Below, piece by piece: positions 18,463 through 63,505 of a DNA stretch of 64,000 nucleotides (its first letter is position 1; every line of letters starts with the position of its first letter). A program made the translations under genes and the position numbers. The notes below the pieces were generated by a model, which worked only from the letters and a program-made list of their open reading frames with translations, was not told the origin of the DNA and ran no database searches. Source of the DNA: Saturnia japonica (taxonomy: Eukaryota > Arthropoda > Insecta > Lepidoptera > Saturniidae). The stretch spans positions 1,237,705 through 1,301,704 of the forward strand of contig CM065334.1 of the NCBI GenBank assembly GCA_033032175.1, in the 5' to 3' direction.

Positions 18463-18718
18463 CGATAAAGAATACCATCACGCTTGTATTCCCCGAAGGG
18501 TTAGGCAGAGGTGTACTAATGTACACCCACAGTTCGCGGAGTATGTTTTTAGGTCCCATGTAATAGGGGGCGAGCTAATTGCTTTTAATAGGGCACAAAG
18601 CCAAACTCCGAGCTGCTAATGAGAAATTCATAGGAAAAACCCAATAACACTTTGCTCGACCTGGGAATCGAACCTAGGACCACTCTCACAGCAAAGAATA
18701 CAGGTGTAAACAAACCGT
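18463..18718 (-). mobile_element. tRNA-derived SINE, family C
   Basis: Inverted relative to 10530-10775. The tRNA-like head is at the right (GACCTGGGAATCGAACCTAG read on plus is the B-box region) and the tail at the left (CGCTTGTATTCCCCGAAGGG). It looks nearly full length. Confidence 0.6.
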
Positions 18719-25570: not shown

Positions 25571-28106
25571 GTAAGTTTTAATGTCCCAGCATAAATTTAC
25601 TTTTGAACTGTTATGTAGTGGTTTTTATTTTAAATCATAAACTTATGCTATTTGACACTTTATTATATAATTTTGCGGCACTTTTAATTATGGTTATTGT
25701 GCACAAATGTAGTGAGTTCTTAAATAATAACTAGGAACATGTATTTTAAGTTGTCACAAAAACTACTAAACTAGACAGTTTTAACAAAAGAGCTTCCATT
25801 TTATTAGTGCTATGTTTGAAGTATAAGAAATATTTTATTCACGTAACGCTGCCAAAATTTTTGACAAACAAGTTGTCATTAAATAAAATGCATTATAAAA
25901 CCTTTTTTATTACTTCGTTTTTTTATTGTTACGTCATATTACATGTTGTCTTCAACTAAAGACACATATGTTATTATGTGCTAATATATGGTAACACGAG
26001 AGGTCTAGACAGATTAATCGTCTGATAACTATTTTCTCGAATAGCAGTGGATAGCTTCTTAATAAAGGGTAAATGAGAAATAAATTTACCGAAACTTAAC
26101 CTTCCTAGAACAACTATACTTTTTACTAAAGGCTTCGCAAACTGATTATTCAATTCTCCCATAGAAAAGATTTTTGTGTGACAAAAATGATTGTTATTTA
26201 TTTTGTCTCCATTTTGTTTTGTGTTTAATGGGATGACAAATTGACGTTGTTTTGTGGAGCCAGTACGAAACTTAGTATAGGAGATCTGGGAACAAGATTT
26301 GAGTAAATTAGTTAGAACTGGTAAGTACAGTTATGTTGTGCATTGTAATAACTTTATAAAGCCTTATTACGATCATAATAATGTGCATAGTTTTTGTATT
26401 ATAATTGTTCAAGAAGAAAACATAAACTCAATGCTTCAATCATAGATTAAAATTGCTTTAAATAAATAAATACCTGCCTCTAATAACTAACTGAATATTT
26501 TGAAGACGTACTAATTGATACAAGAGACGTTGTTTTATACTTTTCCGTATTAAATAACTTGACCACAGCGCCATCTATCCCGTCCAGACTTTCTATTTTC
26601 TTTTTTGGCACAAAACCAATATTATAAGTGTGCCTTTGATCCATATATATATAACTAAGGGACCATCGCAACTTCGTCTGCGTCACATAAGAGAGAATGT
26701 GATGAAATGATAGATATATGCTATCGCAGACTTTTTTTTGGAACTTTTTAAGAGAAACAAATCTGTGATATGTCATTGATGCGTAACTTTAATTATTCGC
26801 AAAATACACAGATTTTCACAATTAATAAATTTTCCCATTTTTGCAACATTTTACATTGATACTCTGCTCCTATTAGTCGTAGCGTGAAATTATATAGCCT
26901 ATAGCCATCCTCGATAAATGGATTATCCAACGTTAAAATATTTTTTCATTTCAACCAGTACTTCCTGAAATTAGCTTTATAATACATACATATTTGTACC
27001 TATGGATTTTGTTATAAGGACTACAACATCACCTACTGCAATCGTTACATTGATAAAACCAATATATTATGTGAATATGAGGTCAATTGGTGAACACTAT
27101 CACTAAGAGACATACCAACGATATATAAATATGTATATACATTTGAAGTATGTATAATGACAATATGTACCAAATTCTTATCTAACAATTCATATCAGAT
27201 GCTATTTTGACATTCGTCTTAAGCTTCTGAACATCTGTAGGTATATTTATTAGATGTCTACTGCTTTTAGAGTAAAAAATAAAATATGGGTTTAACAATA
27301 AGCTAAGATATTTATAGAATTTTAGTAACTATTTCACAATTTTCAGAGATTTTATAATATTCATTTGTAATATCTTTACCAAAATACGTTCAGCAGTTTT
27401 ACATTGATAATGGCAATCGTGTGTAAACAACATAAAATTTTGTATTGAATAGAATAAATGGTAAATTATTTTTTCCACTGAAATAAAATTTTAAATAAAC
27501 GTTAATTATATCGAAATATGGTATAATTTAATTATTAAATATGACCACACTAAAAATACAGAGCTGCCAAACCCGGCCCGTATCGCGCCTAACTGGATCC
27601 GGCAAAAGGAATAAATGTAAATCAATTTTAAGCCTTATGCCTAGCAGTTAAAAGTAAAAATATACTTGACGAAAGAGCATAAAGAATTCCATACAAAAAT
27701 CATATGGTGAGAGAAATCCTGTTTTAACGTAAACTGTAATTCGAACTTTATATAAATTTCAACTCTAACTCCTTAAAATAAGACATAATATTGCATGACA
27801 GTGACATATACATTCCAGTATTCCACATCCAATTCGAATTCAAGTCATATGGTGGTCCTTTTAAAAAAATGTTTCTGTGTAAATCAACTTTAACATGTTT
27901 AATTTAGAGGTTGAAATAGCTTGAAATAAAAATATTAACTATAATACAAAACGACAAAGTTGTTTTACCATTGCAAAAATCGATTTATATCCTTATTGAT
28001 AGGTCTGTTTAAAAATAAATAAGTTTTTAAAGTGTTTGAGATCAGTTTGTAGTTTTTAGGTAATACCGTTTTTGTCCGATCATATGTTTGAGACGTAGAT
28101 AGAAAC
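25571..28106. other. Mostly unassigned; inverted Lep1-type fragment 26655-26993
   Basis: 26795-26993 (TTTGCAACATTTTACATTG, CTCCTATTAGTCGTAGCGTG, GGATTATCC) is an inverted, decayed family G copy with family I-like sequence beside it. A donor-like GAACTG|GTAAGTAC at 26317-26318 might end an untranslated exon. Otherwise AT-rich and featureless. Confidence 0.35.
28099..28106. repeat. 8-bp target-site duplication, left copy
   Basis: ATAGAAAC immediately precedes the left terminal inverted repeat and is repeated exactly after the right one at 29838-29845. Confidence 0.8.
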
Positions 28107-28262
28107 CTCAGAATACAGAAAAAACCAGAAACCGCGAACGCACATAAAACTGAAGGTACAAAAACCACTCTTAAATAGAGTGGTTTGACGTTGTTGCGAT
28201 TAGTCACTCCTTTGTAAGTAGCGCGTCGTGACGTATTTACAAGTGCCAATTTTAATTTTAAA

Positions 28263-29643
28263 ATGCCATCTTGTGTTGTTCCTACATGTAAAAATGCTGC
28301 AGGGATTATAAAAAAACAGGATGGGATCACATTTCATCTGTAAGTAGCGCATTCTAAAGTATATTTATTCAATTGTTTAATTTATTTTACATTTAGAAAA
28401 TGACGCGTCCATTTTTTAAGTGTTGCCATTTTATTTTCATCGAAAATTTTACCCATTTCTTTTTTTAATACTCGTGTAGAATACTTACTATTTTTGTGTA
28501 TATAGAACCTTTGTAATTTTAGTTTCCCTGCTGATGAAAATAGAAAATCGGACTGGATGAAAGTCATACAAAGAGCACGACTAGATGAGTTTTGGAAACC
28601 ATCAAGCCGGAGCGTACTTTGCTCAATTCATTTTGAAGCGCAATATTTTTATGATACAAAAGGTGGTTTGAAAAGACTGAAGAAAGCAGCTAATCCAACT
28701 AAGGTAGATATAGTCATAATAATTACTATATTTATACTGTATCCGTCCTGGTGAAAATATTTGTCATGTATTTTGAAGTAAGGTTTTGGTCCATATATAT
28801 ATATATATATATGCTCACGCCTGTAATCCCCGAAGGAGTATGCAAAGGTATAACAAGTATGCCCACTTTTCGTCGAGCTTATCCGCCCCTCATCGTGATA
28901 AGGGGCGAGCCTAAACCGGGCGCAAATTTCAGATTCCGGGCTAATGAAACTTCGGTGAATTAAATATATGAATAATCTAATACTAACGTTCTATTTCAGT
29001 ATTTGGCCGTAACAGCAGAATTTTCCGAGTTACACATAGAAACGTCTAAACCTTCGACATCGGACAATGTGCGTACCCACCTATGATAATAATGTTTTTT
29101 TTTTTTAATAATATTGAAAGGCAAACAAGGCACTTAATCGATATACTTAGTTACAAGTAAACTAATGTAGTAAATAAACACTAGTAGTAACAGTAATAAA
29201 TGTAAAATAAATTAAGTAAGGCCCTTGGACATTTGCAAGCTCAGGCACAAAGTGCTATTTATTACTAATGCGTTTCCATCCGTGAGGACTGAAATGTCAT
29301 GCCTTGTACGGCAGAAATATTCTGTATTTAATTAAAGTTTTTGTTAATCTATTACATGATACAACAACATACAACTTAAGGTTTTTCATTTCAGGTTACA
29401 CAACCACAATCTCCTGCGCGATCGAACTCAGAGATCGGTGATGTCAATATTTCTGATTTGGAATCTGTGTTTGATACGCCGAGAAAGGTCAAACTTAAAT
29501 CTCAATTACGACGAAAACAATTATTTTGTAAACAACATGTTCGACGAATGAAAACATTACAACAAAAATACAACAGACTTGCCAAGAAGTACGAATCTTT
29601 AAAAAGTATATTAAAAAAATTAAAAAGCAATCCATGTAAATAA
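28263..29643 (+). CDS. THAP-domain and coiled-coil protein, four exons, 191 aa
   Basis: Exons by splice consensus and frame: 28263-28339 (ends CT|GTAAGT), 28523-28703 (after TTTTAG, ends AAG|GTAGAT), 29000-29068 (after TTTCAG, ends AAT|GTGCGT), 29395-29643 (after TTTCAG, stop TAA). Phases 2, 0 and 0 agree. The product has a C2CH THAP zinc finger: C4, C9, C59, H62 (MPSCVVPTC; LCSIHF), with conserved P28, W37 and F63 and an ANPT block at 82-85 in place of the AVPTF motif. An acidic/Ser linker of about 60 residues follows. The last 60 residues are a Lys/Arg/Leu-rich helix (QLRRKQLFCK, NRLAKKYESLK), likely a dimerising coiled coil. AATAAA signals start at the stop codon. THAP fingers bind DNA specifically, and in P elements this is the transposase module that contacts the transposon ends. 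Inference: a nuclear DNA-binding protein, perhaps a repressor like the truncated P-element KP product. The second and third exons overlap no other feature. Alternative: a host THAP gene, but the exact TIR/TSD frame argues against it. Confidence 0.75.
28808..28963 (-). mobile_element. Old family C SINE tail in intron 2 of the THAP gene
   Basis: CACGCCTGTAATCCCCGAAGG and GGGGCGAGCCTAAACCGGGC align with SINE family C tails but with many substitutions. The tRNA-like head is missing. An (AT)n tract precedes it at 28793-28812. Confidence 0.5.
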
Positions 29644-29837
29644 ATAAATATTTTTTAATAAATATCTTTTCTTTAGTGTTATAAGACTACCCCAAAAAGT
29701 GGGAAACCGCTCCCGAGCTAGCAACATTATGCGTATGGGAAGTGGGGCAGGTGCGGGACGTACGTATTGTTTTTGGACACAGTGCAGCGTATGTAATTAT
29801 TCTCGAACGCGGCTTCTGGTTTCTTCTGTATTCTGAG

Positions 29838-29845
29838 ATAGAAAC
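29838..29845. repeat. 8-bp target-site duplication, right copy
   Basis: Second exact copy of ATAGAAAC, directly after the terminal GAG of the right TIR. Confidence 0.8.
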
Positions 29846-30429: not shown

Positions 30430-32215
30430 AGTACCTGCCATGCCGGGGTCCCGCATACAATTCTCGGGTCAGGTAGGAAATATTTGATTTATTTCAATCT
30501 TCGATCGATGACATTCTTTAGACTTTCTTTAGTCCATGTGAGCGAAGTTGACCCCCCGTCCTTTGCGGAGAGAACGGTGGTTACGCTGGCGTGGGCGGTG
30601 ACACGCTCTGTTTGGAGAGACGGTGGAGTAGTACGCGTTAGCTTTCTCGACTTTACCGTCGAGTTCGGTGAAAATGTTTCGCGGTCGGCGTTTTTTCCGT
30701 GAAGCGGTAGACTGTCGGCGATTTTCCTGTGAGGCGGTTGGAATAGGTACATAAGTAGCGGCTGCTATAATTAGCGGGTTGGCGTGATTCGTCGCGGTAT
30801 CGAAGTAAGATCGCGTCAGGAATTTGACGTAAGAGTGAATCCTTTGAAGATCCATATCTCTATGCAACTGTTTGAAATTAGATTTTGACATATGTGCGAA
30901 CGCGGGGCAACTATATGTCATGATCGGACGGATACAGATCTTGTATAGCGTAAGCTTGTGTCTCGTGGACATTTTGCTGTCCTGTGCCGGACTATACGGA
31001 CATGTGGTCTAAAAGAGAGCCTACTGTCTAGTATAGGGTGACGCCTAGATATTTGGACCCTTTGACCCAGGGAGGGAGTTACCGAGGAGTTCGAGAGATT
31101 TGAGTTTCTGCGGTATCCGTGAGGAGTCTATGTCGAAGAGCATCGCGGCGCTCTTAGAGGGTTTATGGCTATTCGCCAGTCGTTAAACCACTCCCCGAGA
31201 GTGGTCACGGCGCGTTGGATTCTATGTTTGAGGTGGAATCTGTTCCTTTTAGAGGCGTATATGACTGTATCGTCAGCGTATAGACCTACCTTGACTTAGG
31301 TCACTGACGTACAGATTAAACAGACTAGGAGCCAGGATGGAACCTTGGGGGACGCCTGAGCGTATGGGGCGAGGTGTTGATAGCTCACGTTCCACTCTGT
31401 AGTGAAAAGTGCGATCTGTAAGGTATTCGCGGATTACTTTAACTAATCTATCCGGGATTTCATTACAGTACAACTTGTAGACTAATCCTTCGTGACAGAC
31501 CTTATCAAAGACCTTGACAACGTCAAAAGAGACTGCAAGTGTACGACGAGCTTCACGTAACTCAGAGAAGTTAAACGTGATGTGCTCCGTGAGGCGGTGC
31601 ACTTGATGAGTGCAAGAATGTCTAGCACGAAAACCGAATTGCTCAGGCGGATAGAGGGTTTTCTCCTTTATTACGGACTTGAGACGGTTCATAAGGAGGC
31701 GCTCATAAATTTTACCTAACGTATTAAGACGACTGATAGGGCGGTAGCTGTCGGGAAGCGACGCGCTCTTGCCGGGCTTATGAAAACCTGTCACTATGGC
31801 CGTTTTCCAGACAGCTGGGAAATGGCAGTGGGCTATGGCTACATTGAAGATGCAGACCAATAGAGCTATGAGGTGATCAGGAAGAACTTTTAGTACTTCA
31901 TTCCTGATCCCGTCGAGACCTGGTGACTTTTTAAGCTTTTGGCTTTTGAGTAACGCACAGACTTCCTCAGAATTGACTGGGGACAGGGACTCTGTCGCGG
32001 GAAGCGTGTACAGCATCCCCACGCAGGCTTCGATACCTTTAACTCGGACGGTATTTGCATTTACACTGTTCGGAGAGCACTGGCTCTCCAAGCAGGTGGC
32101 GAGGCACTCCGCCTTGTCGGTGCTATCGAACGTGAGTGTGGTGCTGGAACTCCTGTCGAGGGGAGACATCTATTTTAAGGGAGTGGGCTACTTTCCAGTA
32201 AGTCAGATGGGATAA
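30430..32215 (-). pseudogene. 5'-truncated, broken jockey-type non-LTR retrotransposon (ORF2)
   Basis: Reading the minus strand: a frame broken near 32168 (YWKVAHSLK then a shifted frame), then 32169-31273 with the reverse transcriptase fingers and palm (KKSPGLDGIRNEVLK; SYRPISRLNTLGKIYERL; motif A FDVVKVFDKV; motif B GVPQGSILAPSLFN). A frameshift near 31283 puts the catalytic YADD motif (about 31271-31282) in another frame. More breaks follow, and 30972-30529 gives the thumb/C-terminal region (LYKICIRPIMTYSCPAFAHM; NPLIIAAATY). A C-terminal frame ends at 30489. The order and motifs are those of jockey-clade ORF2; the endonuclease and ORF1 are missing. It is dead by several frameshifts. The region is clearly GC-richer than its flanks. 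Confidence 0.8.
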
Positions 32216-50681: not shown

Positions 50682-51701
50682 ATGGATACGTTAAAAATTC
50701 GAGTAATTATGGAATATGAGTACCGTCGTGGCAGCAACGCGGCACAAGCGGCACGCAACATCAACGACGTTTACGGAGCTAACACTACAAACCAACGCAC
50801 CACCTGTTATTGGTTTGGTCGCTTCCGTTCTGGGAATTTCGACCTGAAAAATGAACCTCGCGGTCGTCCGAAGACTTTGGTCGACAATGACGAATTAAAG
50901 GCGATTGTGGAAGCTGATGATACACAATCTACGGCTGAATTAGCGGCAGCTTTCGACGTTAGCGTCAAAACAATATTGGTCCATTTGCGTCAAATTGGCA
51001 AGGTAAAAAACCTTGACAAATGGGTGCCCCACGAACTCAATGATCGCCAGCGAGAAGTACGCGTCGAGACGTTCCTTGCACTGCTTAACAGACACACAAA
51101 TGAAGGAATTTTGAACCGCATTGTTACCTGCGATGAAAAATGAATTCTGTTTGATAACCGTAAGCGCTCAGTAAGTTGGTTGGATCCTGGTTCAGCACCT
51201 AAACAATACCCTAAACGAAAACTTACCCCTAGAAAAGTGATGGTCACTGTTTGGTCGTCTAGCGCCAGTGTGATTCATCACAGCTTCTTACCAAACGGGG
51301 TGAGCATTACTGCAGATGTGTACTGTGAAGAACTGAACACAATGATGGAGAAGCTGGCACATCTCCAACCAGCATTGGTCAATCGCTCGTCTCCGCTGCT
51401 CCTGCACGACAACGCGCGACCTCATACTGCACAGCAGACTGTCTCCAAGTTGCAAGAACTGAGGTTGGAAGTTTTCCGTCATCTGCCCTACTCACCAGAC
51501 CTTGCGCCTACAGACTACTACTTTTTCCAGAATTTGGATAACTCCTTGGCGGGAAAAAAATTCAATACCCGAGAGGCAGTACAAAATGCCTTTGAAGAAT
51601 TTGTTGCCTCCCGTCCAGCTGATTTCTTTAAGAAGGGCATCAATAAACTGCCACTGCGCTGGCAAAGATGCATTGATTGCATGGGTGATTACTTCGATTA
51701 A
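50682..51701 (+). pseudogene. Mariner transposase (cecropia subfamily) with one in-frame stop
   Basis: A complete-length mariner transposase frame of 340 codons, broken only by TGA at 51141-51143. Upstream part: paired helix-turn-helix DNA-binding region (about residues 1-110), linker motif KWVPHEL, then TCDEK with the first catalytic Asp. The stop sits where the family has Trp. The downstream part continues in the same frame: the second Asp in HDNARPH and the third in YSPDLAPTDYYFF, 34 residues apart (DD34D), ending CMGDYFD. The WVPHEL, CDEK and HDNARPH blocks and overall sequence fit the cecropia subfamily, to which the human SETMAR domain also belongs. TIRs were not found next to the ORF. 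No other damage is visible, so inactivation is recent or the truncated protein is tolerated. Confidence 0.85.
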
Positions 51702-60000: not shown

Positions 60001-63000
60001 ATTTTGGGGGGTCTACGTTCAGTGGCACTGGACGGGTTAGGATTCGCAGTAATTATTTATTTAATTTAACATATTAGTATCATATATTATAGATAAATTG
60101 TAGCTTTCTGCACTCCTCCTCCATATAAACTTTAACCATGCCAAATCTCACAGACTTCCGTGCACGCAATACGCTTAAAAAGGGGTAGAGGTTTTGCTTC
60201 ACGTATAAATGAATAAAATTGAAGCGTCTGTTTTTAATGTCAAAATAACAGTGTTTAACTAAATGCATTACGAGACTCATAACAAAAAAAAAACATTTTT
60301 TTTGTTTTAGTTTCTCTGTCTGTTTGTTCCGGGTAATCTCTGAAGTTGTTCTATAATTTTTTTCATTTTCACTGGCAGACAGCTGATGGTATAAGAAAAA
60401 AGAATGCGCAAATAAAAATCAATTCGCAAAAAACGATGAATTTAGGGCGCTTGAATAGCTTACGCTATGTAAACCATAAGAGATATATCAAATTAATGTA
60501 CTACATAATTGTAGATATTAAAAATACCTACAAAGTAGTCAGCGAGGTCATATGTCTACGTTCTAAAGATAGCCCACAATAAACATTTTTGTCTTTAAAA
60601 TAACCGGGAGCGGGGTAGCACGTTTCCGCATATGCCCAATCGATGGCATTCTGTAGTCGAAGCGAGCGCAGCCGCTGTCAAAGCTAGTTTACAATAATAT
60701 ATCAGGTACAGCAAAGTGTGTTTAAAATGGTCGATTTCCACCTGTTTACAGTTGCTTCCATTTCAATCAATAAAGGTGAAAGATCCTCTCTGTTCTTAGT
60801 TGCCAACAACTCGAAGAGTTTGATCAGGAAGGTGCTTAGGTAACCATTCCTCCTGGTCTCCATATCATCGACTAGGCCACTGACAAACGGGTTTACTGTG
60901 GTCATCGTTGGGTTCGAACTAGCTGGAATATTCACAAGATCAAAATCAAAACTTTAAAAATCACGTGGTACATGTGAAACATACAAATATCTAGATTCTT
61001 TGAAATCATAAATCACCAGGACTCAAAATATGGACTATTCGTACTGTTACAAGTCTGGTCACCACACTGCTAGGACAATTCGAGGATAATCATAATTATG
61101 TCAGCACTTGCATTAACTACCTCATTAGCCTAGTCGTCCTAGGCACGACTGCTATGTTCGAATCCAAGGTCGAGCGAAGTGTTATTGGGTTTTTAACCGA
61201 TTTCACAAAAAGACGGAGGTTCTCGATTCGAATGCACATTTTTTTTAATGGATGTTCAACCATAAATTCTTTGTTTATGAATCGATTTTGATGATTCTTT
61301 TTTTGTCGAATAGGGGATACCTTCAAGAGTGGTCCCATTTTAATTTCATCGACATTGGACCTTCAACTTCAAAGATACATCAGTGAACTCATCAAAATCA
61401 CTGTGGTTGGCTTTCTTTTTTGTTAAAAATTGTCTTTTCTAAGAATTTCTCAGTAGCAGCTTGGAGTTGGTTTCATGCCCGATTAATGGTAACAGGCTCT
61501 CCCCCTATTACATGGGACCTAAAAACATACTCGGCGAACTGTGGGTGTAAATTAGTACACCTCTGTATAACCCTTCGGGGAATACAGGCGTGATGGTATG
61601 TGAATGAATGAATACTTTATTACAGTTTTAGTTGTGTCTATAAAACATTTTCTTCCAGCGGTAATACACGGTAGTACAATAGGACTATAAATTTAAAATA
61701 AGGCAATTCCAAAAAAAACATCAATGTTTTTGAAGATTTCCCTTGTGAATCTTCGAAGTTGAAGGTACAATGACAATTAAATTAAAATGGAACCGGACCA
61801 CTCTTGAGGTATCCCCTATCTAATGACAAAAAAGAATCATCCAAATCGGTCCATAAACAAATAAGTTATGGCTGAAAGTCCATAAAAACATACATTCGAA
61901 TTGAGAGCGGTTAAAAAACTGTTAACTCAGAAGTAGAGTTTCCTCTCAAGTTAAGCTGAAAAACATATTTATATAGATTAAGAATTGATGGTTGATAGCC
62001 TGGTCAGGCGAAACACTACCAGAGCTAAACAACCAAGAATTAAAGTGTCTACTTATATAAAATTTGACCAGGTTTATGTAACTCACCTGACCCTATAAGA
62101 CTGCCCAGAGGTCGCTTCGGATCCGAATGAGGTGTTGACACTATATGTCCTGGATTATCCTGGCTTCCTGAATGCGTTGGCGGGTAGTGAGGACTATCTG
62201 GGATAGAGACTGTCGTTTCCGCATATCCTGAATGCCCGGGATTTTCTAAATATAGAGTGGTGTCTTCTTGGAGAATGGTTGTGTTTGTTTCGATCGGTGG
62301 AGGGTACTGGGTAGTTGTTGGAACTTTTGGATTTGTTGGTGGTAATGTTGGACTTGGAATGGTAGGGTGAATTCCTGAATATGGTGGTGGGTTGGGAGGA
62401 CTACCCATATCCGGGATAGTTCCTGAAGTTTCCGTGTATACTGGTACAGGAAATCCTGGATGGTCGGGATTTTCTAAATTATCAGTAGGGACTTCCTGCT
62501 CAATAGTTGAGTTAGTTTCGATCGGTGGAGAATAATGGGTAGTTGTTGGATCATTTGGATCTGTTGATGGTAATGTTTGACTTGGAAAGGTAGGATTAAT
62601 TCCTGGGTATTGTGGTCGGTTGGGAGGACTACCCATATCCGGGATAGTTCCTGAAGTTTCCGTGTATAGTGGTACAGGAAATCCTGGAACATCGGGATTT
62701 TCTAAATTATCAGTAGGGACTTCTTGCTCAATAGTTGTGTTAGTTTCGATCGGTGGAGAATAATGGGTTCTTGTTGGAACATTTGGATCTGTTGATGGTA
62801 ATGTTTGACTTGGAAAGGTAGGATTAATTCCTGGGTATTGTGGTCGGTTGGGAGGACTACCCATATCCGGGATAGTTATTGAAGTTTCCGTGTATAGTGG
62901 TACAGGAAATCCTGGAACATCGGGATTTTCTAAATTATCAGTAGGGACTTCTTGCTCAATAGTTGTGTTAGTTTCGATCGGTGGAGAATAATGGGTACTT

Positions 63001-63505
63001 GTTGGAACATTTGGATCTGTTGGTGGTAATGTTTGACTTGGAAAGGTAGGATTAATTCCTGGGTATTGTGGTCGGTTGGGAGGACTACCCATATCCGGGA
63101 TAGTTACTGAAGTTTCCGTGTATAGTGGTACAGGAAATCCTGGAACATCGGGATTTTCTAAATTATCAGTAGGGACTTCTTGTTCAATAGTTGTGTTAGT
63201 TTCGATCGGTGGAGAATAATGGGTAGTTGTTGGAACATTTTGATCTGTTGGTGGTAATGTTTGACTTGGAAAGGTAGGATTAATTCCTGGGTATTGTGGT
63301 CGGTTGGGAGGACTACCCATATCGGGGATATTTCTTGAAGTTTCCGTGTATACTGGAAAAGGGAATCCTGGATACTCCTGATTTTCTAAATTATCAGTAG
63401 GGACTTCTTGGTCAATAGTTGGGCTTGTTCCAAACGGTGAAGTATTTACATTTGTTGGTGGAAAAGGTGGACTTGGAATACTTGGGTTCTGTCTTCCTGG
63501 GTAAT
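53310..63505 (-). CDS. Inferred multi-exon gene: Pro/Thr-rich repeat protein, C-terminal 894 residues in window
   Basis: Five minus-strand blocks join in frame: 63505-62087, 60922-60742, 56851-56764, 55287-55062, 54082-53310. Junctions: acceptor TTATAG|AT, donor GTCAG|GTGAGT (phase 1); acceptor TTCCAG|CT, donor AACAG|GTGGAA (phase 2); acceptor CATAG|A, donor GAG|GTAAGC (phase 0); acceptor TTCCAG|TCG, donor AAAG|GTATCG (phase 1); acceptor TTTCAG|AT; stop TAA. Total 2687 nt, 895 codons including stop. The product begins with 76-aa Pro/Thr repeats, then about 160 residues predicted helical (LSTFLIKLFELL; SPVMNAVVDYADSLYKD; LAIEVIDEALLEPFKRM; ILLDNLNKALLKHF), then a 256-residue basic Lys/His/Asn/Ser tail. 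The start lies beyond the window. The repeat exon is the firmest part; the last exon is the least sure. NTT sequons and the Pro/Thr bias suggest a secreted or surface mucin-like protein (inference). No family is recognised. The introns are full of mobile elements, including a mariner. Confidence 0.5.
54550..55045 (+). repeat. Family D copy (D2 then D1) between inferred exons
   Basis: 54550-54780 is D2 (TTATCCGATTTGGATG, GACCTTCGACTTTGAAGATGC). 54830-55045 is D1 (AAGACGAATCTAACGACACC, CCTCCTTTTTGCAGTCGGG). D1 ends 17 bases from the inferred donor at 55062, so an open frame that seems to run past the exon reads into this repeat. Confidence 0.55.
55468..55998 (-). mobile_element. Family A Helitron-like repeat
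   Basis: CTAG (55468-55471) GTGTGCCCGCGGC through GTTTACTCAGCGTAAGCC and CGTATCGGAGATTACCC to TTTGCTAATTGTATA. Confidence 0.6.
56085..56720 (+). pseudogene. Non-LTR 3' end split by a family B element
   Basis: 56085-56257 gives NNIPKHIPDLPDNKFKDHVK and the GATCATTATGTGTATGATAG block; 56600-56720 gives the 3' UTR (CCCGATCGAGTTTCTTGCCG, GATGACTGGGATG). In the copy at 50.2-50.6 kb the two parts are continuous. Confidence 0.6.
56258..56590 (-). mobile_element. Family B Helitron-like element inside the non-LTR copy
   Basis: CTAG at 56258-56261, hairpin ATCGAAATTCGAT near 56276, GCTTTCTGCACTCCTTCTCC, and the 5' end TTTTGCTTCACGTATTAAT near 56585. Confidence 0.65.
56852..57514. other. No exon found; short repeat at 57430-57500
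   Basis: Part of a 3.9-kb inferred intron. 57430-57500 matches 30195-30260. The 104-codon frame at 57131-57445 lacks support. Confidence 0.3.
57515..57600 (+). mobile_element. tRNA-like SINE head
   Basis: TGGCCTAGTGGTATGCCGAC gives an A box and GATAGTTCGAATCCCGC a B box. The acceptor stem cannot close, so it is a SINE and not a tRNA gene. Related to 8525-8610. Confidence 0.5.
57636..58911 (-). pseudogene. Second mariner-family transposase, badly decayed
   Basis: On the minus strand: an N-terminal part with a likely frameshift near 58775, then an open frame 58714-58358 (AQNWFKRFQSGNFDGKDAPR; KLDIWVPHEL; IGDEK with the first Asp). TAG at 58358-58360 replaces the Trp that follows DEK in mariners. 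A 1-nt frameshift near 58325, TAG at 58308-58310, then 58295-58059 (WDWKGIVHYELLPP; HHDNARPHTS with the second Asp). After that come stops and a deletion removing the third Asp region. The C-terminus (KVIEQNGTYIL) survives to 57817. Candidate TIRs TTTGGCAACATTAAA (57636-57650) and its reverse complement (58897-58911, 14 of 15) give a 1276-bp element, the usual mariner size. It belongs to a different subfamily from the 50.7-kb copy. Confidence 0.75.
58912..59199. other. No gene recognised
   Basis: AT-rich flank of the mariner; a short plus-strand frame from 58980 is unsupported. Confidence 0.3.
59200..59535 (-). mobile_element. Family I Helitron-like element
   Basis: TTATTGTGGCTTATATATAA, GCGCACGCGGATAAAGCAG and CCTCGTGAATCTGTCTATC follow the inverted family I order. 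Confidence 0.55.
59536..59853. other. GC-richer unassigned patch at 59590-59800
   Basis: Open frames exist on both strands (for example minus MALLGRLCEMQHTMEFGEP from 59715), with no splice partner in phase with the inferred gene. It could be a skipped exon or an unrelated fragment. Confidence 0.25.
59854..60215 (-). mobile_element. Family B Helitron-like element, full length
   Basis: CTAG 59854-59857, AGCTCGAAATTCGACC, ATGCCAAATCTCACAGAC and GGTTTTGCTTCACGTAT. It abuts the family A copy that follows. Confidence 0.6.
60205..60688 (+). mobile_element. Family A Helitron-like repeat
   Basis: TGAATAAAATTGAAGCGTC to CGAGCGCAGCCGC and CAAAGCTAG (60680-60688). It lies 54 bases from the inferred donor of the exon at 60742-60922. 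Confidence 0.55.
61117..61602 (+). mobile_element. Family C SINE split by a family D2 copy
   Basis: Head: ATTAGCCTAGTCGTCCTAGG .. AGTGTTATTGGGTTTTT (61127-61196). Tail: GAATTTCTCAGTAGCAGC .. CTTCGGGGAATACAGGCG (61443-61591). The D2 insert 61205-61440 has ATGAATCGATTTTGATGATTC and GTGGTCCCATTTTAATTTC. The joined SINE matches uninterrupted copies. Confidence 0.65.
61715..61915 (-). repeat. Family D2 segment, inverted
   Basis: CACTCTTGAGGTATCCCC and CATCCAAATCGGTCCATAAAC; in opposite orientation to the D2 inside the neighbouring SINE. Confidence 0.5.
62087..63505 (-). CDS. Internal exon of 76-aa Pro/Thr-rich tandem repeats
   Basis: 1419 nt, open throughout, phase 1 at both ends (acceptor TTATAG|AT at the right, donor GTCAG|GTGAGT at the left), so it can be skipped or duplicated without a frameshift. 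Four near-identical units of 76 aa are flanked by diverged ones. Unit order: MGSPPNRPQYPGINPTFPSQ, then a TDPNVPT block, THYSPPIETNTTIEQ, EVPTDNLENPDVPGFPV and YTETS.TIPD. One N-linked sequon (NTT) per unit and many Thr/Ser/Pro suggest glycosylation. The last, degenerate unit (NPPPYSGIHPT) is followed by HSGSQDNPG and RPLGSLIGS. The frame would stop at 62049 only if the donor were not used. Confidence 0.7.
62167..63505 (-). repeat. Tandem array, 228-bp period
   Basis: The GGAGGACTACCCATAT block occurs at 62395, 62623, 62851, 63079 and 63307, exactly 228 bp apart each time. The four central units differ at only a few positions; the units at each edge are more diverged and shortened, the usual pattern of unequal crossing-over in the middle of an array. 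Confidence 0.9.

Follow-up and report, generated by a model that had tools for sequence, protein, structure and literature searches.

How should a short transposon-like element carrying an apparently intact, spliced THAP-domain gene be read: as the source of a repressor protein, as a passively spreading relic, or as a gene recruited by the host? The element in question is 1,731 bp long and lies in the 64-kb stretch of DNA analysed here (the window), where an exact 8-bp duplication, ATAGAAAC, forms its outer borders. An initial annotation had taken it for a P-superfamily element that has lost its transposase core, and had proposed that it may be a mobile repressor or a step toward domestication. 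The features needed to follow the argument are listed below, with the basis of each in brackets.

28099..28106, unstranded: left target site duplication ATAGAAAC (direct sequence reading)
28107..28136, plus strand: 5' terminal inverted repeat (28/30 against the 3' repeat; identical to the 5' repeat of the full-length copy L198)
28263..28339, plus strand: exon 1, with the start codon and THAP zinc ligands C4 and C9 (reading frame; parent intron mapping)
28523..28703, plus strand: exon 2, with the remainder of the THAP domain, including C59 and H62 (reading frame; Pfam; parent intron mapping)
28704..28999, plus strand: intron 2 (its parent counterpart, at 294 nt, is almost equal)
29000..29068, plus strand: exon 3, linker (reading frame; parent intron mapping)
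29395..29643, plus strand: exon 4, with linker, coiled coil, the new residues PCK and the stop (reading frame; parent intron mapping)
29630..29632, plus strand: deletion junction with the 3-base microhomology ATC (alignment to parent; size by arithmetic)
29644..29807, plus strand: 3' subterminal region, parent sequence kept (alignment to L198)
29808..29837, minus strand: 3' terminal inverted repeat (28/30 against the 5' repeat)
29838..29845, unstranded: right target site duplication ATAGAAAC (direct sequence reading)

Both the terminal inverted repeats (TIRs) and the exact target site duplication (TSD) described initially were borne out at these coordinates. The inverted repeat can be traced out to 41 nt at an identity of 83%, and we take its sequence to differ from that of the Drosophila P TIR. 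No third site matching the TIR pattern was found in the 64-kb window with up to three mismatches allowed (mean over 100 shuffles, 0.00). A scan for short repeats close to the element ends recovered a 12-base repeat at 28213 and 28339 and no clear binding sites, and Rfam and tRNA scans of the whole window were empty. When viral contigs were compared with the 14-base start of the TIR, all of the matches listed were taken as chance, and the longer TIR pattern gave zero matches to them.

Joining the four exons gives 576 nt encoding 191 aa, with GT-AG introns, a complete C2CH set of zinc ligands (C4, C9, C59, H62) and a Pfam THAP match over residues 4-85 (E = 2.5e-15), so that the four-exon frame proposed from the sequence stands. 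Support for the exon joins comes from relatives whose sequences continue across them, some of which are themselves gene predictions, and from the full-length parent described below, whose mapped introns are likewise GT-AG. Hydrophobic heptads occupy residues 161-188 of the predicted product; a structure model of the relative P0001 places a helix at 132-187 (mean pLDDT 70), at a low pTM of 0.32, and a PDB search with this model returned no match. At position 83, the deleted forms carry N and relatives a hydrophobic residue, a replacement that might weaken the THAP domain of those forms. Intron 2 holds a copy of a dispersed repeat within about 28815-28980; four further copies (~150-180 bp) lie in the window near 18478 and 20003 and, on the minus strand, near 61593 and 10768.

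A protein search returned 13 relatives, including short THAP proteins of similar length predicted in Spodoptera exigua (72% identity), Parnassius apollo (64%) and Ostrinia furnacalis (50%), as well as P0005 (source tag lgn), in which the same coiled coil is fused to a P-element HTH domain. A search with a padded query yielded 21 proteins, the best of which, P0014 (878 aa), has a THAP domain, a P-type HTH, both RNase H parts, a GTP-binding insert and a C-terminus like that of THAP9; its match to 6p5a, the solved structure of the Drosophila P transposase, has an E-value of 6.6e-21. Similarity between the window and P0014 stops where the coiled coil ends, at residue 186 of 191; no stretch of the window resembles the rest of P0014 with an E-value below 1, and no trace of the P-type HTH, the split RNase H or the GTP-binding insert was found there.

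We then have to ask what the element derives from. We searched its own genome (580 Mb in 402 contigs) with P0014 and scored the best 52 of 1,167 first-look candidates, which gave at least two copies that are open over 809 aa and 78% identical to the query, together with several damaged or shortened copies, the total being a lower bound. The full-length copies L198 and L199 are 3,954 bp each, differ from one another by one base, and are each flanked by their own exact TSD, GTATAGAG and ATGTATGT respectively. Their ends are the same as the TIRs of the window element, and their introns, located by comparison with the window, measure 183, 294 and 325 nt, bounded by GT-AG and placed at the same positions. 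The joined parent frame is open for 913 aa, with identical proteins in the two copies; Pfam assigns to it THAP, HTH, RNase H, GTP-binding and THAP9-like C-terminal domains, and it matches 6p5a. Acidic motifs occur in it at 300, 387 and 645, which we judged, from the alignment of P0014 with 6p5a, to correspond to the catalytic residues D230, D303 and E531 of Drosophila P transposase (PMC7776569). Full-length relatives that have these TIRs and encode THAP, RNase H and GTP-binding regions, which the initial annotation had suggested looking for, are thus present in the genome, and L198 and L199 support its view of a P-superfamily element stripped of its transposase core. Five further P-like loci, 38-47% identical to P0014, have open frames of 837-907 aa (C16:10463945, C16:10441651, C9:17806538, C6:5395243 and C14:16481306), so that the genome has more than one apparently intact P family. 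A different internal deletion is seen at C17:8471640-8472425, where transposase residues 89-231 are followed directly by residues 762-878, both in an open frame given as 266 aa.

The same full-length copies bear on the reading in which the element belongs to another superfamily with 8-bp duplications, such as hAT, and encloses a THAP gene by chance. Duplications of this length do occur in that superfamily, as in hobo (PMC3276498), but the full-length copies sharing these ends code for a P transposase, and we regard this reading as already refuted.

Local alignment of the window element with L198 falls into two overlapping parts, element positions 1-1526 at 96.7% identity and 1524-1731 at 97.6%, indicating that a single block of about 2,225 bp is missing. 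A global alignment gave the lower figure of 1,597 identical positions out of 1,721 (92.8%), which we put down to the placement of the long gap. What has been deleted comprises parent residues 189-913, the stop and the beginning of the 3' untranslated part; residues 1-188 are kept at 95.2% identity, and the terminal PCK and stop of the 191-aa frame derive from sequence past the parent's stop codon. The deletion thus spares the ends, the introns, the THAP domain and the coiled-coil stretch, and removes the HTH, RNase H, GTP-binding and C-terminal parts. Since the HTH, RNase H and GTP-binding insert are gone from the window and present in the parent, the window element is a deletion derivative, that is, a non-autonomous P element with an internal deletion.

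We next considered the short form across the genome. Searches were made with the window element (best 40 of 354 first-look candidates scored) and with one of its copies, L157 (best 40 of 351 scored). The 65 distinct short copies examined are the best matches to these two queries, and the sample leans to them; L194 lies outside this set. An exact 8-bp TSD flanks 37 of the 39 copies fetched in the first set, the exceptions being L163, with a 9-base duplication, and L149, with none. In the second set, for which 30 copies were fetched, an exact TSD was present at 26 of 26 loci with both ends found, a count that includes four places of the first set and seven array copies with one common duplication. 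The 38 target sites are all different and show a palindromic preference reaching past the TSD, with T at -2 in 27/38 and A at +11 in 25/38. A 14-bp palindromic target motif has been reported for both the Drosophila P element and hobo (PMC3276498), so the motif is not specific to P elements. Two copies, L142 and L143, are identical across 1,716 bp and lie on different contigs with different TSDs, indicating recent movement. The short form is itself a mobile family present at many TSD-flanked sites. Absence of the TIRs from every other genomic copy had been named at the outset as a finding that would count against the annotation; instead, they recur on the full-length relatives and on many copies at different TSD-flanked sites. 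The second such finding named there, a single-copy orthologue at the same position in distant Lepidoptera, is made improbable by the number of copies and by their TSDs.

At C1:8989467-9079651, at least ten copies (L169-L172, L174, L182, L186 and L188-L190) have one target duplication, ACTATACC, and some lie about 3,128 bp apart, a pattern that would suit amplification of a single insertion together with its flanking DNA; the flanks of the three pairs compared, aligned without gaps, are no more than 0.31-0.75 identical. A stop by residue 66 and the loss of the intron-2 acceptor are common to all ten.

This distribution is difficult to reconcile with the view that the host has taken over the THAP frame for a function of its own at one fixed locus. 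The short THAP proteins of similar length in the three lepidopteran species named above would agree with such recruitment. In a tree of 25 proteins, the window protein groups with the S. exigua protein and P0002 (support 95/88), and the hypothesis that the closest short forms arose only once is not rejected (p = 0.17 to 0.36). A single origin of all 11 short forms, however, is rejected (p = 1.6e-6), and the many TSD-flanked copies occupy different sites, some of them being nearly identical. We consider domestication very improbable, and found no support for the initially proposed step toward it in a multi-copy mobile family with many broken copies. Some lepidopteran "short THAP-domain proteins" may instead be P deletion derivatives of this kind.

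The copies do not all descend from one deletion. The exact junction word GCAATCCATG is present in 44 of the 65, and ten more belong to the same deletion class: six with one junction base changed, two otherwise changed (L189 and L190), and L150 and L153 with a local rearrangement. Another ten copies have a 45-nt insert relative to the window (44 nt in L161). Neither form can be derived from the other, because each retains bases absent from its counterpart. Comparison of these junctions indicates at least two independent deletions, both ending just behind the coiled coil and sparing the same half of the protein. One further copy, L167, keeps 180 nt beyond the window form, including the start of the HTH region. 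We dropped it as a third independent deletion, since it keeps all of the window form plus more; it may be a third deletion or an intermediate.

Is the retained frame maintained, or has it simply not yet decayed? The whole frame (190 or 191 aa) is open in 25 of 65 copies, or in 32 of 65 when frames stopping at 181-184 are allowed; among the 25, L140 and L141 have lost the intron-2 acceptor and L129 lacks zinc ligand C9. In a neutral simulation at 5 substitutions the open fraction was 0.45 with indels and 0.74 without them. The observed fraction is close to that expected from neutral decay at about 1% divergence, and the share of open copies therefore proves nothing.

These counts agree with the main rival reading, in which the element is a passive hitchhiker that spreads because it is short and keeps its ends, its frame being an undecayed relic with no useful product. 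The whole frame is absent in 29 of the 54 copies of the window class, ten of these belonging to the one dead array. In eight of the ten 45-nt-insert copies the frame is stopped by residue 173, and the remaining two (L158 and L164) lack zinc ligand C4. Deleted P elements are, moreover, likely to be mobilised preferentially (PMC12393704). Spread of this kind needs no protein.

Variation among copies points the other way. For the selection test we estimated mutation rates from the introns and used 43 copies of the window deletion class. Left out were 22 of the 65: the ten copies with the 45-nt insert, the ten array copies, L167, and L176, which duplicates L175 with identical flanks. Variants common to at least two of the 43 copies comprise 13 synonymous, 12 missense and 3 stop changes, which, for an expected synonymous fraction of 0.229, gives omega about 0.34 (p = 0.006). 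Singletons, at 17 synonymous, 36 missense and 9 stop, fit neutrality (omega 0.78, p = 0.37). Replacements are thus depleted in shared variants and not in singletons, which speaks against a hitchhiker. Among the 25 intact copies, a set chosen for intactness, the shared class consists of 11 synonymous and 7 missense variants (p = 0.0005). When a simple kappa of 2 was used instead, the shared class of the 43-copy set still gave omega 0.38 (p = 0.014). A first pN/pS count under a simple mutation model, on 40 copies, gave 0.76, 0.60 and 0.70 with no contrast between classes; the contrast did appear in counts based on the intron-derived spectrum, for which several copy groupings were tried and p-values are uncorrected. 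The ten 45-nt-insert copies alone gave no significant selection result, and variant density is only slightly lower in coding sequence (90/555 sites) than in introns (150/769).

A second indication against the hitchhiker is that changes on the window branch avoid conserved columns (2/45 vs 14/68, p = 0.025; p = 0.0007 and 0.07 at other thresholds), although part of this branch may predate the deletion. Since the tested copies have the deletion in common, depletion among them would mean constraint after it arose, barring exchange with full-length copies. To us this is evidence, of modest weight, that a useful protein was retained by source copies once the deletion had arisen. Overall, the hitchhiker seems to us a real contender, though the less probable account.

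The reading that we prefer, with a probability of roughly 0.6, is that the window element is a KP-type non-autonomous P element whose product acts as a KP-like repressor. Transposase from full-length copies would have moved the short form in trans. The 191-aa protein would pair through its coiled coil, its THAP domain would bind the element ends that are common to the parent, and it would then compete with, block or poison the parent transposase, as the KP protein does in Drosophila. Such a role fits the domains kept, the apparently intact parent, the selection signal and the fact that two deletions left the same half in place. Putative P repressors are marked by an interrupted transposase and a kept DNA-binding domain (PMC12393704), and the window element has both. 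As for the "mobile repressor" of the initial annotation, its mobility is established by the many TSD-flanked sites, and repression, an interpretation of the kept domains, draws modest support from shared variants.

The closest precedent is KP of Drosophila melanogaster, an internally deleted P element encoding a 207-aa repressor that keeps the DNA-binding domain and has lost catalysis (PMC7776569, PMC12393704); a title cited in PMC7776569 indicates that its dimerising region is also kept. Like KP, the window element is an internal deletion with the DNA-binding domain kept in frame and catalysis lost. Unlike KP, it belongs to a distant P family, with a 913-aa parent, three introns ahead of the main exon and a predicted product of 191 aa, in a genome whose nearest named relatives are Lepidoptera, and its repressor role is putative. 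The 66-kDa P repressor, produced by intron retention, is likewise a truncated transposase with a THAP domain (PMC7776569); here, in contrast, the truncation lies in the DNA rather than in splicing, and the catalytic block is absent. The P elements and P-MITEs of Anopheles gambiae, with TIRs of 27-32 bp, 8-bp TSDs, transposases of 873-895 aa and many short derivatives (PMC1562414), resemble the window family in having TIRs of about 30 bp, 8-bp TSDs, a similar transposase size and short derivatives; a short form keeping the THAP-coiled-coil frame is not described in the parts of PMC1562414 on which we draw.

Deletion derivatives of P that could act as repressors are already known from Drosophila, and the present element adds one from a genome whose nearest named relatives are Lepidoptera. 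We found no description of a KP-like element in Lepidoptera in the open-access literature, judged from listings, and one may exist elsewhere. Proposed explanations for deleted P elements in Drosophila are drift, preferential mobilisation and selection for repression (PMC12393704). In the present family, a KP-like form occurs outside Drosophila alongside an apparently intact parent, with at least two deletions sparing the same half and copies enough for a selection test, which makes the choice among these explanations testable in another lineage.

Comparison of the full-length and deleted forms provides one further lead. L198 and L199 differ from the window-type consensus at residues 73, 76, 83, 92, 96, 154 and 157, and the 45-nt-insert consensus and L167 differ from L198 at the same seven residues, among others. 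With P0001 and P0002 as outgroups, six of the changes fall on the full-length lineage and I83N on the deleted-form lineage; numbers are small, and at residue 73 only P0002 agrees. By our reading of the domain map, the six changes would affect the THAP loop, the linker and the first part of the coiled coil, that is, putative DNA-binding and pairing surfaces. It is conceivable, though we think it doubtful, that the short copies are selected repressors from which the autonomous P lineage is evolving away. If true, this would amount to an arms race in which a transposon is pitted against derivatives of itself that arose by deletion.

Elsewhere in the window, two open frames at 50682-51701 (plus strand) presumably represent a mariner-type transposase, judging by motif, and open frames at 30529-32169 (minus strand) are, again by motif, what we take to be fragments of a non-LTR reverse transcriptase. 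A 423-aa open frame of proline- and threonine-rich repeats lies at 62049-63320 (minus strand).
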